Assembly: GCA_028285035.1 (NCBI GenBank) | Contig: JANQQF010000155.1 | Coordinates: 1-64,000, forward strand | DNA: 64,000 nucleotides | Origin: Phycisphaerae bacterium | GTDB lineage: Bacteria > Chloroflexota > Anaerolineae > 4572-78 > J111 | Direction of reading: 5' to 3' | In this document: one piece after another, positions 2,323 through 10,389 of the stretch | How positions within the stretch are numbered: position 1 is the first letter of the stretch | How the letters are laid out: the number at the start of each line of letters is the position of its first letter | Notes under the pieces: generated by a model | What the model saw: the letters and a program-made list of their open reading frames with translations, nothing else | Databases searched by the model: none | Told to the model about the DNA's origin: nothing | Position numbers and translations under genes: made by a program

Positions 2323-2733
2323 TCATTCTTCACGCGTAAACATGAGTTTGCTAAAGAGGCCACGATTTTCAGCCACAAGACGATAACCAAGCTCGGTAAA
2401 CCAGACCAAAGGATACCCTGTGAGAAGTCGAGTCAACCAACGCGGATAATAGCCGATTTCTTGCAGAATAAACATCGCAGCCCGACCGGCCTTGATCACC
2501 TGACCATCAGCGCTAATCACATGAACTGCTTTTTCACAGGCATCGAACAGGGGTGGGGTCATTGGCGGTGTAGGACATTCCTGATAAGGTATTGAGAAAA
2601 ATCGTTTTTGAGAATCGTGACGTCTGACCCAGACGACAGTTCGTCTTCAAAAGCCTCAATCCCCATCCCACAAAAGCCAGTGTTGATCTTGTTGTAACCA
2701 ATCTTGTTTAGGTGAGGGCATCAATTTAGACAT
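2323..2733 (-). CDS. DCC/DUF393 thiol-disulfide oxidoreductase, probable UxxU selenoprotein
   Basis: A 136-codon frame open from ATG 2733 to the stop at 2323-2325 except for two TGA codons, at 2656-2658 (codon 26) and 2647-2649 (codon 29). Conventional calling keeps only the last 79 residues. Reading through gives LLWDGD-x-GF-x-RRTVVWVRRHD, where the family has DGxCxxC; both TGAs fall exactly on the two redox cysteines. Downstream the frame continues with family features: PYQECPTPPMTP, AVHVISADGQV, KAGRAAMFIL, and ELGYRLVAENRG near the end. Length is normal for the family (120-140). There is no frameshift or other disruption. TGA is a normal stop in other genes here, so code reassignment is unlikely. 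A SECIS-like hairpin follows (2621-2635). ATG 2733 lies 3 nt after the GNAT stop, so the two are probably cotranscribed. The alternative is a pseudogene hit twice at exactly the two cysteine codons. Selenocysteine decoding is inferred; selA, selB and selC are not in this window. Confidence 0.8.
2621..2635 (-). promoter_or_regulatory. candidate bacterial SECIS hairpin
   Basis: On the mRNA strand, CGTCTG-GGT-CAGACG forms a perfect 6-bp stem with a 3-nt loop that begins with G. The loop starts 18 nt after the second TGA and 27 nt after the first. The stem can extend past a T-T mismatch by two more pairs (2618-2638). This fits the bacterial SECIS model as I know it: the loop 16-37 nt past the UGA, a 3-14-nt loop, a G in the first two loop positions, and an upper stem of at least 4 bp. 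A competing stem (AGACGA/TCGTCT, 2631-2646) starts directly after the second TGA. Confidence 0.6.
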
Positions 2734-2736
2734 AAA

Positions 2737-3606
2737 CTAATATGCAGCCTGGAGACCAATTGACTGCTCCAACTCAGGCGTCAATTTTTGTAACAAATAC
2801 CGATTGCGTCGTTCCCCATTTCGCCCTGTAATTGAGATAAAATCAGTTAGAATGTAATCTTTGCTAAAATAGGTCTCAAAAGCCTTACGGACTTTCATAC
2901 GCCAATCCATTGCCAAATCCATATTAGAAATCTTAATCGGATGAATACTGGCTGGAATCGCCATTTGGATTGTATCTGCCGACAAGGCAAGATTGGCTTG
3001 CACAACCTGCAAAGTGGGGCCTTGACCCATCGTCTCAAAAATTGGTTCAGCTTCATCAACCAAATCCCAATCAATATAAGGCTCTTCCTCGGCTCGCTCT
3101 CCATTAACCCACGCCTCAACAAATAATCGATCTGTTGGTAAACCCTCATTTAATGCGCCGAAACCTGTTCCATAAATATTTCGCAAATATCGTCGAGAAA
3201 CTGTTCGTAATTTATGAACATTCAAATGTGCATTTGGGGTTTCCAAGGGATCATAGGTCCAGGTAATAAGAGGAAGTCCGGCGGCAATCGTTCGCTCACG
3301 TTGGGTTCGTTTCAGACTTTCAGCAATACCACGGCCACGCCACTGCTGCCGCACCCCCATTGCTTGAGAATACAATTTAAAAGGGCCATTTCCCTCACGA
3401 CCAATAAAACTGAATAGGAAGGCAACCATGTCCCCACTGACACTATCAAATGCCCCTAGGACAATCCCGCCATGCTTTGCGGTGCTCGCCAAAAGTGGGG
3501 GGTACAATCCAACGGTTGGGTCATCTAATCCCCATATCTCCTGTTGCAAGTGATGAACCATAACCATTTCATCATAGCTCTCTAAATTGCGAATTGTATA
3601 GCTCAT
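2737..3606 (-). CDS. GNAT-family N-acetyltransferase (COG3375-like)
   Basis: A 289-residue predicted acetyltransferase. The acetyl-CoA loop is in the Q/RxxGxG/A region (QWRGRGIAESLKR, about residues 88-100), preceded by beta strands containing VLGAFD and LYSQAMGV. The segment ITWTYDPLETPNAHLN followed by YGTGFGALNEGLPTDRLFVEW-like sequence is typical of the COG3375 branch of GNAT proteins, whose substrate is not known to me. A strong purine-rich ribosome site lies before ATG 3606. It is the first gene of a likely two-gene unit with the DUF393 selenoprotein candidate. Confidence 0.8.
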   Translation of the reverse strand: MSYTIRNLESYDEMVMVHHLQQEIWGLDDPTVGLYPPLLASTAKHGGIVLGAFDSVSGDMVAFLFSFIGREGNGPFKLYSQAMGVRQQWRGRGIAESLKRTQRERTIAAGLPLITWTYDPLETPNAHLNVHKLRTVSRRYLRNIYGTGFGALNEGLPTDRLFVEAWVNGERAEEEPYIDWDLVDEAEPIFETMGQGPTLQVVQANLALSADTIQMAIPASIHPIKISNMDLAMDWRMKVRKAFETYFSKDYILTDFISITGRNGERRNRYLLQKLTPELEQSIGLQAAY

Positions 3607-5991: not shown

Positions 5992-5994
5992 CTA
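5803..5994 (-). repeat. inverted repeat arm A around the lexA cluster
   Basis: This segment read on the minus strand aligns with 8119-8291 read on the plus strand, at roughly 75% identity by eye. The best block runs from GCTTTAAAGCAGTGCTAT through TTTCGCCATCTGA to ATTTATTTTCT. Both copies keep the same reading frame across the alignment, giving KALKQCY(A/S)LVDGLS then LTYFAI-stop and an upstream KRT(T/I)EPNG. Arm A has a 7-codon in-frame insertion. It could be a decayed short element or a small gene relic. It begins at the stop codon of the lexA-like gene. Confidence 0.65.
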
Positions 5995-6588
5995 CTCAAC
6001 CCGGCGAATAACAGCAACAACTTTTCCTTGAATGTCTATGCTGTGTGGCATAACCTTCAAAGATTGAACGGTAGGGTCGGCTGGGTGCAATTCTACCTGA
6101 CCATTCTCTCGATAATACCGTCTCATAAGAGGCTGATCTTGATCAGGCACTCGTACAACAACCATATCCCCATTACTCGCTTGATCTTGACGCTGCAAAA
6201 CGATTACGTCGCCTTCATTGACGAAGGCATCAATCAAACTATCATCCTGCACCTTTAAGGCACATAGATCATCACGATTAGGGACAATGTCGCTTGTTAG
6301 CTCAATTGCATTCTCCTGTGCTGTATCCGAGATGAGTGTGTTGATCTCATTAACAACAGGAACCCGAACCAAATCACTGTCATTAGCTAATCGAATGCCG
6401 CGTGACTTATTAGGCGATCGTGACAAACAATCTGCATTTTCGAGGGCAGTTAGATGATAGTTTACCAGCGACTTCGAACTGATTTCCATTCCAGTTCGAA
6501 TCTCTTCCAAGGTAGGAGGGTATCGATTCTCCTCCATAAAGCCTTCGATAAAAGCCAGCATCTCTTTTTGTTTTCCGCTAATCTGCAT
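5992..6588 (-). CDS. LexA-like repressor without cleavage site (paralog)
   Basis: A 198-residue protein with the full LexA architecture: an N-terminal winged helix (RYPPTLEEI, SSKSLVNYHLTALE, SRGIRL) and an S24-type C-terminal domain. Compared with its neighbour, the self-cleavage Ala-Gly (RIAAGSPI) is replaced by INTLISD (82-88). The catalytic Ser is kept as S117 (DDSLID). The general-base Lys of LKRFF is replaced by R156 (LMRRYY). It should therefore bind DNA and dimerise but not self-cleave in response to RecA. It is 225 nt downstream of canonical lexA in the same orientation and has its own promoter with LexA boxes. Cross-regulation between the two is likely. It is not a pseudogene by length, and it has a good AGGAG ribosome site. 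Confidence 0.85.
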   Translation of the reverse strand: MQISGKQKEMLAFIEGFMEENRYPPTLEEIRTGMEISSKSLVNYHLTALENADCLSRSPNKSRGIRLANDSDLVRVPVVNEINTLISDTAQENAIELTSDIVPNRDDLCALKVQDDSLIDAFVNEGDVIVLQRQDQASNGDMVVVRVPDQDQPLMRRYYRENGQVELHPADPTVQSLKVMPHSIDIQGKVVAVIRRVE

Positions 6589-6623
6589 TTGTTTCTGGCT
6601 CCTTTCATAAATTGACCAAAATA

Positions 6624-6635
6624 GAACATAAATTC
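6624..6635. promoter_or_regulatory. second, imperfect LexA box
   Basis: GAACATAAATTC matches GAAC-N4-GTTC with one mismatch. It lies just downstream of the -10 of the lexA-like gene, about where transcription starts. Confidence 0.5.
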
Positions 6636-6644
6636 TACAAAGTC

Positions 6645-6674
6645 ATTATAGCAGAACAAATGTTCTATTGTCAA
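6645..6674 (-). promoter_or_regulatory. promoter of the lexA-like gene with LexA box
   Basis: On the minus strand there is a perfect TTGACA (6669-6674), an 18-nt spacer and a perfect TATAAT (6645-6650). The spacer contains AGAACAAATGTTCT (6653-6666), a perfect palindromic GAAC-N4-GTTC LexA box of the Gram-positive/Chloroflexi type. LexA bound here would block RNA polymerase. Confidence 0.9.
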
Positions 6675-6742
6675 GTAGGGGTTATGGTAATTTTTTAGGA
6701 GTTTTAGGGGGTATTGTGATAGAAATTTTGGGGAAGTTTAAT

Positions 6743-6773
6743 TAACTGGGCACACATATTGCGTGCCCAGTTA
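6743..6773. terminator. hairpin terminator after lexA
   Basis: TAACTGGGCAC (6743-6753) and GTGCCCAGTTA (6763-6773) form a perfect 11-bp stem with a 9-nt loop, between lexA and the downstream lexA-like gene. The minus-strand tail is T/A-rich (TTAATTAAAC). It should separate the two transcripts. Confidence 0.65.
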
Positions 6774-6812
6774 GAGGCAGTTTATGGGGATTATACAAGC
6801 TAAAAAATCAGG

Positions 6813-7451
6813 TTAGTTGAGTTGGCGAATAACTGTAACAACTCGTCCTTGAATGTCAACTTTGTTTGAGTCAACATAAATTGGATCCATTGTTTTATTT
6901 TCAGGTTGCAATCGAATCTGGTCGCCTTCTTGGAAGAAACGCTTGAGGGTTGTTTCTTCACGCTCAACCAACCAAGCCGCAACCATATCACCGTTGTTTG
7001 CTGTACTAGTGTGACGCATTACAACGATATCACCATCATTAATAAAGGCGTCAATCATTGAAGTTCCCTGTACTCGCAGGGCATAGATATTATCTTCCCC
7101 ATCAGCCAAATCACGAGTCAGTTCAATGGTATCGGTCTCACTATCAAAAGAACCCTCTGGAACAGCAATTGGAGAACCAGCTGCAATCCGGCCTAGCAAT
7201 GGCACCTTTATTAAATCAGTGGCCCCAGTTAGTTCTTCTAAACCATCAACCAAACGAATTCCGCGTGATACAGTTCGATCACGGAAAATGTAGCCTTGCC
7301 GCTGCAGGGCATCGAGATTGTAATTTACAACCGAAGTTGAGCTAATGTTCACAGCTTCCCCAATTTCCCGAATAGTTGGGGGGTATCCATTATCTAGTGT
7401 AAATGTACGGAGAAAGCTTAATATCTTACTTTGTCGTTCAGATAATCCCAT
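6813..7451 (-). CDS. lexA: LexA repressor, canonical
   Basis: SOS repressor and self-cleaving peptidase of 212 residues. The N-terminal winged helix (GYPPTIREI, SSTSVVNYNLDAL, SRGIRL) binds the LexA box. The cleavage site A91-G92 (RIAAGSPI), nucleophile S131 (QGTSMIDAF) and general base K170 (TTLKRFF) are all intact. Upon DNA damage RecA filaments should trigger autocleavage and derepression. The gene is autoregulated through a LexA box inside its promoter. It lies between a receiver-only response regulator upstream and a non-cleavable paralog downstream. GAGGT precedes ATG 7451 by 9 nt. Confidence 0.95.
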   Translation of the reverse strand: MGLSERQSKILSFLRTFTLDNGYPPTIREIGEAVNISSTSVVNYNLDALQRQGYIFRDRTVSRGIRLVDGLEELTGATDLIKVPLLGRIAAGSPIAVPEGSFDSETDTIELTRDLADGEDNIYALRVQGTSMIDAFINDGDIVVMRHTSTANNGDMVAAWLVEREETTLKRFFQEGDQIRLQPENKTMDPIYVDSNKVDIQGRVVTVIRQLN

Positions 7452-8392: not shown

Positions 8393-8761
8393 TTACCATT
8401 CAACATTAAAGAGGCGATCAAACTGCATAATTCGAAACAATCGGCTTAAATGAGCGTTGGGTTTACGCAGATTAATTTGAATATTTTGGGTAGAAAATTC
8501 TTTTTGCGCATCGATCAAAAGACGCAGTCCGTGTGAGTCCACCCCATCCGCTTCACTCAAATCGATTACTAAGGTCTTGGCTTTTGTTTCAACGAGCTTT
8601 TTAAGAAGAGAGTGGCTACTATCGGTATACCACATGAGATAAGATGTGCTTGCATTAACAAAGCCAATAATTTTCAGGGTCCAGGTATCACCATCTTGTG
8701 TCAATTCTGTGGTAAGAGTCATCGGTTTTGAGTTCACAGTCATCCCCTCTAAAGTAAACAT
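8393..8761 (-). CDS. STAS-domain protein (anti-sigma factor antagonist-like)
   Basis: A 122-residue single STAS domain. The conserved segment KTLVIDLSEADGVDSHGLRLLIDA (about residues 62-85) contains S76 at the position phosphorylated in SpoIIAA/RsbV-like antagonists. The likely role is in a partner-switching module controlling a sigma factor or another anti-sigma target. No RsbW-like kinase or PP2C phosphatase is nearby. The sequence before it (YLMWYTDSSHSLLKK) is unlike classical RsbV. It lies between the nuo operon end and the response regulator, all on the same strand, but with its own spacing. An alternative start is Met7. Confidence 0.8.
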   Translation of the reverse strand: MFTLEGMTVNSKPMTLTTELTQDGDTWTLKIIGFVNASTSYLMWYTDSSHSLLKKLVETKAKTLVIDLSEADGVDSHGLRLLIDAQKEFSTQNIQINLRKPNAHLSRLFRIMQFDRLFNVEW

Positions 8762-8836
8762 TGCCTTACACCCGCTTTCCTAAGTATGCCAAAGGTTGAA
8801 GATTAATTCAATAGGAGTTCTGTATATTGAACAAAT

Positions 8837-8862
8837 CAAAGCCGCTCATCAAAGCGACTTTG
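8837..8862 (-). terminator. terminator of the nuo operon
   Basis: On the minus strand CAAAGTCGCT and AGCGGCTTTG form a 10-bp stem with one G-T pair and a 6-nt loop. A partly T-rich tail (ATTTGTTC) follows. It lies 63 nt after the nuoN stop. Confidence 0.55.
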
Positions 8863-8925
8863 TCACATACACAGAAAACCACGGGTGTATAAATTTTAGA
8901 TTAATTTGCTATTGAAAGTCAAGTC

Positions 8926-10389
8926 TCAACCAAAAATTCCTAATTGAGACAGATTAACCAGAGGTGTTGGCCATATACCCAGAACAATTGTCAGAATACT
9001 CGCAATGGCCAACGTAATTGTTACAGGCATACTTAGATTAACAGGTACAGGTTCTGTCGACTCATCAGGTGTACGCATATACATCTGAACAACAACACCG
9101 AGATAGTAAAACGCAGAGATGGCACTGTTAATCATACCGATCACAGCAAGCCAGCTTAAACCGGCTTCCACTGCTGCACGAAATACATAAAGTTTCCCCC
9201 AAAAGCCAACAAATGGGGGAATTCCAGTCAAAGATAACATAAATAGAGCCATAACCAACGCCAAAAGTGGCATCCGTGCGCCTAACCCCACATAATCAGT
9301 CACGGCAGAGCCAATCTTATCACGATGCTCAATAACCGCAATCACAGCAAATGCACCGATATTCATAAACGCATAGGCCATTAAGTAGAATAGCACCCCG
9401 TTCACGCCGCTCATTGAACCAGCCGCAACCCCAACCAAGATGTAGCCAGCGTGGGCAATACTTGAGTAGGCCAGCATTCGCTTCACATCTTTTTGAGCCA
9501 ATGCGGCAATATTTCCACCTGTCATCGTAACCACAGCCAGAGCCGCTACAGCGATCGTCCAGTTAATCGTGAATGCTGACTCATAGGAAACCATTAGCAA
9601 CCGAATAAGAGAGGCAAAGCCAGCCGCTTTAGCACCAACCGACATAAATGCAGTGACCGATGTGGGAGCACCGTGATAAACATCAGGGGTCCACCACTGA
9701 AAAGGAACTGCTGCCACTTTGAAGGCAAAGCCAACAAGCAACAAGCCTAAACCAACGACTGCCAACGAATTCTCAAAAGCGCCAGCGCTACCTTCATACC
9801 ACTCGCCAATAGCTTGTAAATTTGTTGTTCCCGTTGCGCCATAGGTTAAAGCAACGCCGTAGAGGAAGAAGGCTGAAGCAAACGCTCCCAACACGAAGTA
9901 TTTCATTCCTGCTTCACCTGACCCCATCTGACGCCGATTGAAGGCGGCTAGAATATAGAGGGCGATGGACATAATTTCCAAGCCGAGGAAAACGATAATC
10001 AGGTCGGATGCTGCACCCATTAACATCATCCCCGCTGTGGCAAAGAGCAGAAGGGCATAGTATTCACCGCGCTGCATATCGTGGCCTTGCAGATAGCTGA
10101 TTGAGAGCAAAACCGACAAGGCAGCTGTAACGATGAATATCAAATTTAAGACAAGGGAGTAGCCATCACTCACAGCCATATCTTGAAAGGCAGGGGCTGG
10201 GTCAAGACCGAACATGCTAAAGGTGACTACTGCGGCAATAATTAACCCGATTAGGCTAACGTACCCAACAATTCGTTTGTCATTAAAAACCATGTCCACA
10301 ATCATCACAACAAATGCTGTCAGAACGACTACAAGTTGGGGATATAGTCCAGGAATTTCTGCGGCTAATGCCGGAATTTCTATATTCAT
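8926..10389 (-). CDS. nuoN: NADH-quinone oxidoreductase subunit N
   Basis: Antiporter-like membrane subunit of complex I, 487 residues, with about 14 hydrophobic helices as expected. The proton-channel region includes FKVAAVPFQWWTPDVYHGAPTSV with the conserved Lys and Pro of the discontinuous helix, and DVKRMLAYSSIAHAGYILVG. It couples quinone reduction to proton pumping in the cytoplasmic membrane. It is the last gene of the operon, 26 nt after nuoM, and is followed by a hairpin terminator. Confidence 0.97.
   Translation of the reverse strand: MNIEIPALAAEIPGLYPQLVVVLTAFVVMIVDMVFNDKRIVGYVSLIGLIIAAVVTFSMFGLDPAPAFQDMAVSDGYSLVLNLIFIVTAALSVLLSISYLQGHDMQRGEYYALLLFATAGMMLMGAASDLIIVFLGLEIMSIALYILAAFNRRQMGSGEAGMKYFVLGAFASAFFLYGVALTYGATGTTNLQAIGEWYEGSAGAFENSLAVVGLGLLLVGFAFKVAAVPFQWWTPDVYHGAPTSVTAFMSVGAKAAGFASLIRLLMVSYESAFTINWTIAVAALAVVTMTGGNIAALAQKDVKRMLAYSSIAHAGYILVGVAAGSMSGVNGVLFYLMAYAFMNIGAFAVIAVIEHRDKIGSAVTDYVGLGARMPLLALVMALFMLSLTGIPPFVGFWGKLYVFRAAVEAGLSWLAVIGMINSAISAFYYLGVVVQMYMRTPDESTEPVPVNLSMPVTITLAIASILTIVLGIWPTPLVNLSQLGIFG

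Follow-up and report, generated by a model that had tools for sequence, protein, structure and literature searches.

The 64,000-nucleotide stretch of DNA analysed here (the window) very probably carries a functional selenoprotein gene of the DCC1-like family, in which both cysteines of the CxxC redox pair are encoded by UGA. In the complete reading, to which we assign a probability of roughly 0.9, the DCC1-like gene is intact, a single downstream hairpin would serve both internal UGA codons, the terminal UGA would act as a stop and the product would be a redox protein with a UxxU active site. Incorporation of selenocysteine (Sec) is deduced from sequence comparison. The alignment of the two codons with the family's Cys pair, the retention of both TGA codons in relatives, a covarying hairpin and the presence of selenocysteine machinery in related genomes strongly support the UxxU reading that had been put forward in an initial annotation of this DNA. 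The features referred to below are as follows.

2323..2733, minus strand: predicted DCC1-like (DUF393/PF04134) selenoprotein gene with a UxxU active site, 136 residues, own stop TGA at 2323-2325
2656..2658, minus strand: TGA codon 26, predicted selenocysteine at the first Cys of CxxC
2647..2649, minus strand: TGA codon 29, predicted selenocysteine at the second Cys of CxxC
2621..2635, minus strand: SECIS-type hairpin with a 6-bp stem CGUCUG/CAGACG and apical loop GGU
2737..3606, minus strand: upstream neighbour of 289 amino acids, acetyltransferase-like by eye, ending 3 nt before the DCC start

Reading frame, family and neighbourhood

Retranslation of the 411 bases at 2323-2733 on the minus strand, with TGA translated as a residue, yields 136 residues followed by the terminal TGA as codon 137. 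Codons 26 and 29 are the sole internal stops of this frame and both are TGA, as the initial annotation had stated. Its assignment to the DCC/DUF393 family is also borne out: with TGA read as Cys, residues 20-126 match the Pfam DCC1-like model PF04134 with 54 bits against a cut-off of 27.8 (E = 4.6e-14), and each of 13 further Sec-type proteins that were read in their correct frames also exceeds this cut-off. The query used for sequence searches (P0001) had 137 residues, the terminal TGA being read as Cys, and the fold prediction used 136. In an alignment of 67 proteins with UGA read as Cys, codons 26 and 29 fall on an invariant Cys pair, which settles the alignment with DUF393 that had been proposed as a check. 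Together with Asp23, which is equally invariant, they form an Asp-x-x-Cys-x-x-Cys motif near the N-terminus that is here encoded with UGA at both Cys positions.

The 289-residue upstream neighbour gave no Pfam match at E = 1e-3, and a GNAT-like homologue with 56% identity also adjoins the DCC gene in the relative G009. The convergent gene on the other side of the DCC gene encodes a DNA polymerase IV-type protein with IMS domains. The window and G009 further have in common an FtsK-like gene (74% identity) and two genes that appear LexA-like by eye (72% and 47%). These tandem repressor-like genes stand beside a short FtsK-like gene at 5992-7451 of the window and at L171:3853-5344, with their order kept in G009. 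A scan of the window listed 33 UGA-interrupted frames, among which by eye only the DCC gene stood out. Searches of the window with Rfam at gathering thresholds and with ARAGORN gave no match, hence no tRNA-Sec was seen within it.

Distribution, selection and history of the TGA pair

The same pair of TGA codons is found in a locus (L001) of the MAG titled Chloroflexi bacterium bin_187 (JAIFLK010000019.1), the product of which is 66% identical to that of the window gene over residues 14-133. Within its DCC match there are no stops other than the TGAs at 26 and 29. This was the single UU locus among 80 DCC loci in a scan of named genomes, the other 79 being CC; two of the six search patterns contained Cys, which biases the scan in part against Sec forms, and it is not used as a frequency. 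When 150 relatives of this MAG (genome G001) were searched with stops read through, a DCC match was obtained in 22, and seven of these (G001, G005, G007, G009, G024, G036 and G137) contain two internal TGAs. The 14 internal TGAs of the seven genomes all occupy codons 26 and 29, and in the six genomes besides that of L001 the proteins are 50-64% identical to that of the window. From the phylum of G001, 400 genomes were then drawn evenly, G001 itself being counted in both sets. A DCC match was obtained in 95 of them, with TGA at one or both sites in 21 of the 95.

Typing of the loci from both G001-centred searches covered every match reported with an internal TGA, and stop-free matches without a locus were counted as CC. 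Out of 63 loci examined 62 were typed, L110 being dropped for want of a readable site: 19 are TGA/TGA, four are TGA/Cys (UxxC; L156, L160, L161 and L165), four are Cys/TGA (CxxU; L158, L159, L162 and L163) and 35 are Cys/Cys. All four motif states are thus present in relatives, including CxxU, which had not been among the variants that the initial annotation suggested looking for. Among 195 genomes from the phylum of G528, a MAG titled Myxococcaceae, a DCC match is present in 55 and two TGAs in only one of these (G544; locus L185, 53% identity). Every match reported with an internal TGA was typed in this set as well; of its 20 typed loci, all but L185 are CxxC. With the window gene included, the typed DCC genes comprise 21 UU, four UC and four CU, the others being CC. 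Apart from the window, 20 records have the TGA/TGA form, among them relatives with as little as about 50% identity and members of more distant branches. Additional TGAs within domain matches are confined to their C-terminal ends (position +102 in L134 and L162; also in L021). Plasmid records encode no relative at E = 1e-5.

A few further features of these loci were noted. G524 carries two DCC genes (L148 and L155), one CxxC and one UxxU. The UxxU protein at L092:472-966 (minus strand) is extended at its C-terminus by about 40 residues that, by eye, include a likely membrane helix; the window protein has no such extension. In L001 the UxxU DCC gene is followed, after 100 nt, by a gene at 8587-8952 that by eye begins like thioredoxin reductase.

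The window gene was compared with eight TGA/TGA relatives, leaving out the TGA codons. For residues 18-57, the synonymous difference pS is 0.65-1.03 and the non-synonymous difference pN is 0.16-0.30; for residues 58-94 the corresponding values are 0.65-0.91 and 0.19-0.32. Judged by these values, the frame before, between and after the TGA codons is under purifying selection. Decay of the frame elsewhere, which the initial annotation had named as a refuting sign, is not observed. Sequencing error, raised in the same annotation, can hardly account for TGA at the same two codons in 21 records.

A tree was built from 92 sequences with the two redox sites removed and L185 left out; its root is arbitrary and many of its forks are unresolved. 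The Sec forms fall into two separate parts. The part that includes the window has 16 rows, eight UU and eight CC, the CC members coming from two of the G-numbered genomes and from MAGs titled Myxococcaceae (two), Planctomycetota, proteobacterium, Latescibacterota and Handelsmanbacteria. The second part has 31 rows (12 UU, four UC, four CU and 11 CC), all from the G001-centred searches, and every UC and CU form sits in it. The four labels need ten changes on the best tree, and well supported branches force at least three for the CC label; Cys and Sec have therefore probably been exchanged repeatedly, including exchange at a single site within the 31-row part. The tree also places the CxxC gene L134 within a group of CxxU genes, a possible case of reversion from Sec to Cys.

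Hairpin, machinery and predicted product

The loop of the SECIS-type hairpin starts 17 nt past the second UGA and 29 nt past the first. Its minimum free energy (MFE) is -10.7 over 42 nt and that of the bare hairpin alone is -5.8. The bacterial SECIS model in the legend to Figure 2 of a 2026 review (PMC13188914) specifies an apical loop of 3-9 nt, an upper stem of 4-16 bp, a G in the first two loop positions, a spacing of 16-37 nt and an MFE of at most -7.5 kcal/mol, and the window hairpin lies within the limits given in that legend for both UGAs. No hairpin is found by the same rule 16-37 nt downstream of the terminal UGA.

The helix can be followed through nine sequences of the window clade (the window, L092-L096, L131, L132 and L185), in which 54 of 54 cells are paired and the GGU loop is invariant. 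Three of the six pairs have changed on both sides, and one of them is seen as C-G, U-A and A-U. Of 500 column shuffles none attained the covariation score, six had at least as many two-sided changes and 32 at least as many extra pair types. In slid controls at most 37% of the cells pair.

Folding was also compared with a null in which the protein is kept and synonymous codons are redrawn. Local folding is stronger than this null predicts in the Sec forms and not in the Cys forms. The mean z values are -1.85 for UU (n = 20), -1.61 for UC (n = 4), -1.45 for CU (n = 4) and 0.11 for CC (n = 64), the 64 Cys genes being the 35 typed loci of the G001-centred searches plus L002-L030 (29 of the 79 CC loci of the named-genome scan). 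Sec and Cys forms differ with a Mann-Whitney p of 2.8e-11, a value obtained on sequences that are not independent by descent. Single genes with a folding p below 0.05 number 11 of 20 for UU, one of four for UC, none of four for CU and two of 64 for CC. A rule-based hairpin was defined by a stem of at least 5 bp, a loop of 3-9 nt with a G in the first two positions, an energy of at most -4 and a loop start 15-25 nt after codon 29. Of the 29 Sec-type genes 25 have it, where the null predicts 11.2, as against 13 of the 64 Cys-type genes, where 13.5 are predicted; by type it is present in 18 of 21 UU, three of four UC (3.0 expected) and four of four CU genes. The Sec-type genes that fail are L108, L161 and L170, which have no such hairpin, and L147, where it is weak (-3.3). 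Taken alone, the window gives p values of 0.062 and 0.066 in the two null tests.

The Sec machinery was sought in the genomes of relatives that carry U-type genes, a set of 27 carriers from the two G001-centred searches (seven from the relatives and 21 from the phylum draw, with G001 in both). SelA (PF03841, E below 1e-100) is present in 24 of the 27, namely five of the seven relatives and 19 of the 21 carriers from the phylum draw. The exceptions are G001 and G024, which lack it, and G460, whose matches are all weak (best 2.3e-9). A clear tRNA-Sec (RF01852) is likewise found in 24 of the 27 (six of seven relatives and 18 of 20 others), the exceptions being G007, where the match of 47.1 bits is at the cut-off, and G462 and G448, which are without a clear match. 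SelA or tRNA-Sec is present in all 27 carriers and both in 21. SelB, searched in the relatives set, exceeds its cut-off in five of the seven carriers. In G009, the genome that shares gene neighbours with the window, SelA, SelB and tRNA-Sec are all present. SelA is over its cut-off in 326 of the 400 genomes drawn from the Chloroflexota phylum, and in this draw it does not separate CC-only genomes (60 of 74) from U genomes (19 of 21). As it is common in CC-only genomes too, the machinery provides consistency and not discrimination. In the tRNA-Sec of G001 (L086:1501-1626) 31 nt of the 3' part are duplicated in tandem, for a total length of 126 nt; the assembly may be at fault here, or selC may be damaged. 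Neither SelA nor SelB was found in this MAG.

In the proposed mechanism UGA26 and UGA29 would both be read as Sec, with SelB and Sec-tRNA(Sec) recruited by one short downstream hairpin. The GGU loop of this hairpin, which would serve both codons, is within the published spacing from each. The terminal UGA, with no such hairpin behind it, would end translation. The product would be a small protein with a predicted thioredoxin-like fold in which the Sec pair opens the first helix: in the structure model the redox pair lies between a strand (residues 18-22) and a helix (residues 27-39), and the structural matches listed for the model are mostly of the Trx, Grx and GST types. Solved structures gave no sequence match at E values up to 1. 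The UxxU protein would probably be a fast dithiol/disulfide oxidoreductase whose Sec pair alternates between the diselenol and diselenide states, and its reduction by thioredoxin reductase is plausible.

Pseudogene formation, sequencing error, global reassignment of UGA and internal initiation were considered as other explanations, and all are rejected. Translation of the gene with the standard code gives short fragments only, and its database entry (P0003) is a piece of 79 amino acids that starts downstream of both TGAs, as one would see if an ordinary CxxC DCC gene had suffered two nonsense mutations. Such an origin is extremely improbable. Relatives with only about 50% identity, and more distant branches too, retain the TGA pair. 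The frame has no other stop, its hairpin covaries, and the purifying selection seen on the codons around the TGAs is strong evidence against a pseudogene; the initial annotation had already held this route to be unlikely and is upheld. Proteins of 79-92 amino acids in databases (P0003, P0076, P0095 and P0109) could suggest that the true product is the 79-residue frame initiated internally at Met58, with the upstream part as a leader. This too has a very small chance of being correct: residues 18-57 are constrained like the rest, and such constraint before, between and after the TGAs makes initiation at Met58 unlikely as the sole source of product, and the truncated form would, according to the model, be missing both the active site and the first strand.

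A genome-wide meaning of UGA as Trp or Cys, or a suppressor other than tRNA-Sec that inserts Cys at both codons, would fit the Trp that the public homologue P0002 has at both sites, as a gene caller set to UGA = Trp would yield. We regard this as highly unlikely, since in the window UGA is an ordinary stop, used by the DCC gene and by 11 of the 45 ORFs that reach 150 amino acids, and TGG occurs 255 times in these 45 ORFs; moreover, internal TGA in the typed loci occurs only at the redox Cys sites, together with a SECIS-type hairpin, and relatives have tRNA-Sec and SelA. A different doubt concerns function, with Sec inserted but the Sec pair binding metal or Se/S species for storage or transfer rather than acting as a dithiol oxidoreductase. 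In favour of this proposal, DCC proteins are, as far as is known, biochemically little studied. UxxU is also given for the metal-binding family NF041115 in Table 1 of PMC13188914. Against it, a CxxC that opens the first helix of a predicted thioredoxin-like fold is in the redox position, and UxxC and CxxU forms occur, as they do in redox selenoproteins. We consider a metal or storage role improbable, though less so than the genome-wide recoding of UGA, and retain the UxxU oxidoreductase as the preferred reading.

Place among known selenoproteins

DCC is very probably an overlooked selenoprotein family, which we did not find in the sources checked. The main table of the 2026 review (PMC13188914) has 119 prokaryotic selenoprotein families and in it there is no DCC, DUF393 or PF04134 entry; a term search of an earlier review (PMC9312934) gave no mention of DCC. 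In NCBIfam release 20 no model scores above its cut-off for eight of these proteins, with two matches far below cut-off, and no paper on a DCC/DUF393 selenoprotein was found in the open full-text literature, a scope that leaves subscription papers and bioRxiv aside. The name DUF393 appears in three papers of that literature, and to judge by their titles none of them deals with selenoproteins. Public homologues that start past the TGA region include P0109 (DUF393 domain-containing protein, Anaerolineae bacterium, 88 amino acids), P0076 and P0095, and we infer that these three and P0002, with its two Trp residues, derive from further UxxU genes. Overall it is likely that DCC forms a family outside the 2026 catalogue that extends across Chloroflexota and to one genome in the phylum of the Myxococcaceae MAG, with four motif states, repeated exchange between Cys and Sec and one SECIS serving two UGAs separated by two codons.

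If correct, this would add a family to the prokaryotic selenoproteome, one that gene callers can truncate or mistranslate, and would indicate hidden genes in Chloroflexota, where SelA is common. The CxxC, UxxC, CxxU and UxxU forms would be a natural series in which to ask what a diselenide does beyond a selenylsulfide or a disulfide. It would also become testable why a full diselenide is used by some proteins, and how a single SECIS could direct Sec insertion at two neighbouring codons without preventing termination at the UGA that ends the gene.

The two Sec residues in a UxxU arrangement that are predicted for the window gene have counterparts in the UxxU entries of the main table of PMC13188914 (Prx-like PF00578, metal-binding NF041115 and FmdB-type TIGR02605) and in the UxxU Prx-like 2 sequences of the GOS metagenome, but these belong to protein families other than DCC. 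With the DCC1-like/DUF393 proteins (PF04134; YuxK) the window protein shares its sequence family, its length and the position of the CxxC pair. It differs from them in that both redox Cys codons are replaced by UGA and in the SECIS-type hairpin that lies inside the coding sequence. Selenoprotein L, reportedly described by Shchedrina in 2007 as a diselenide selenoprotein, is eukaryotic and has its SECIS in the 3' UTR, and is unlike the window gene both in its host and in the location of this element.
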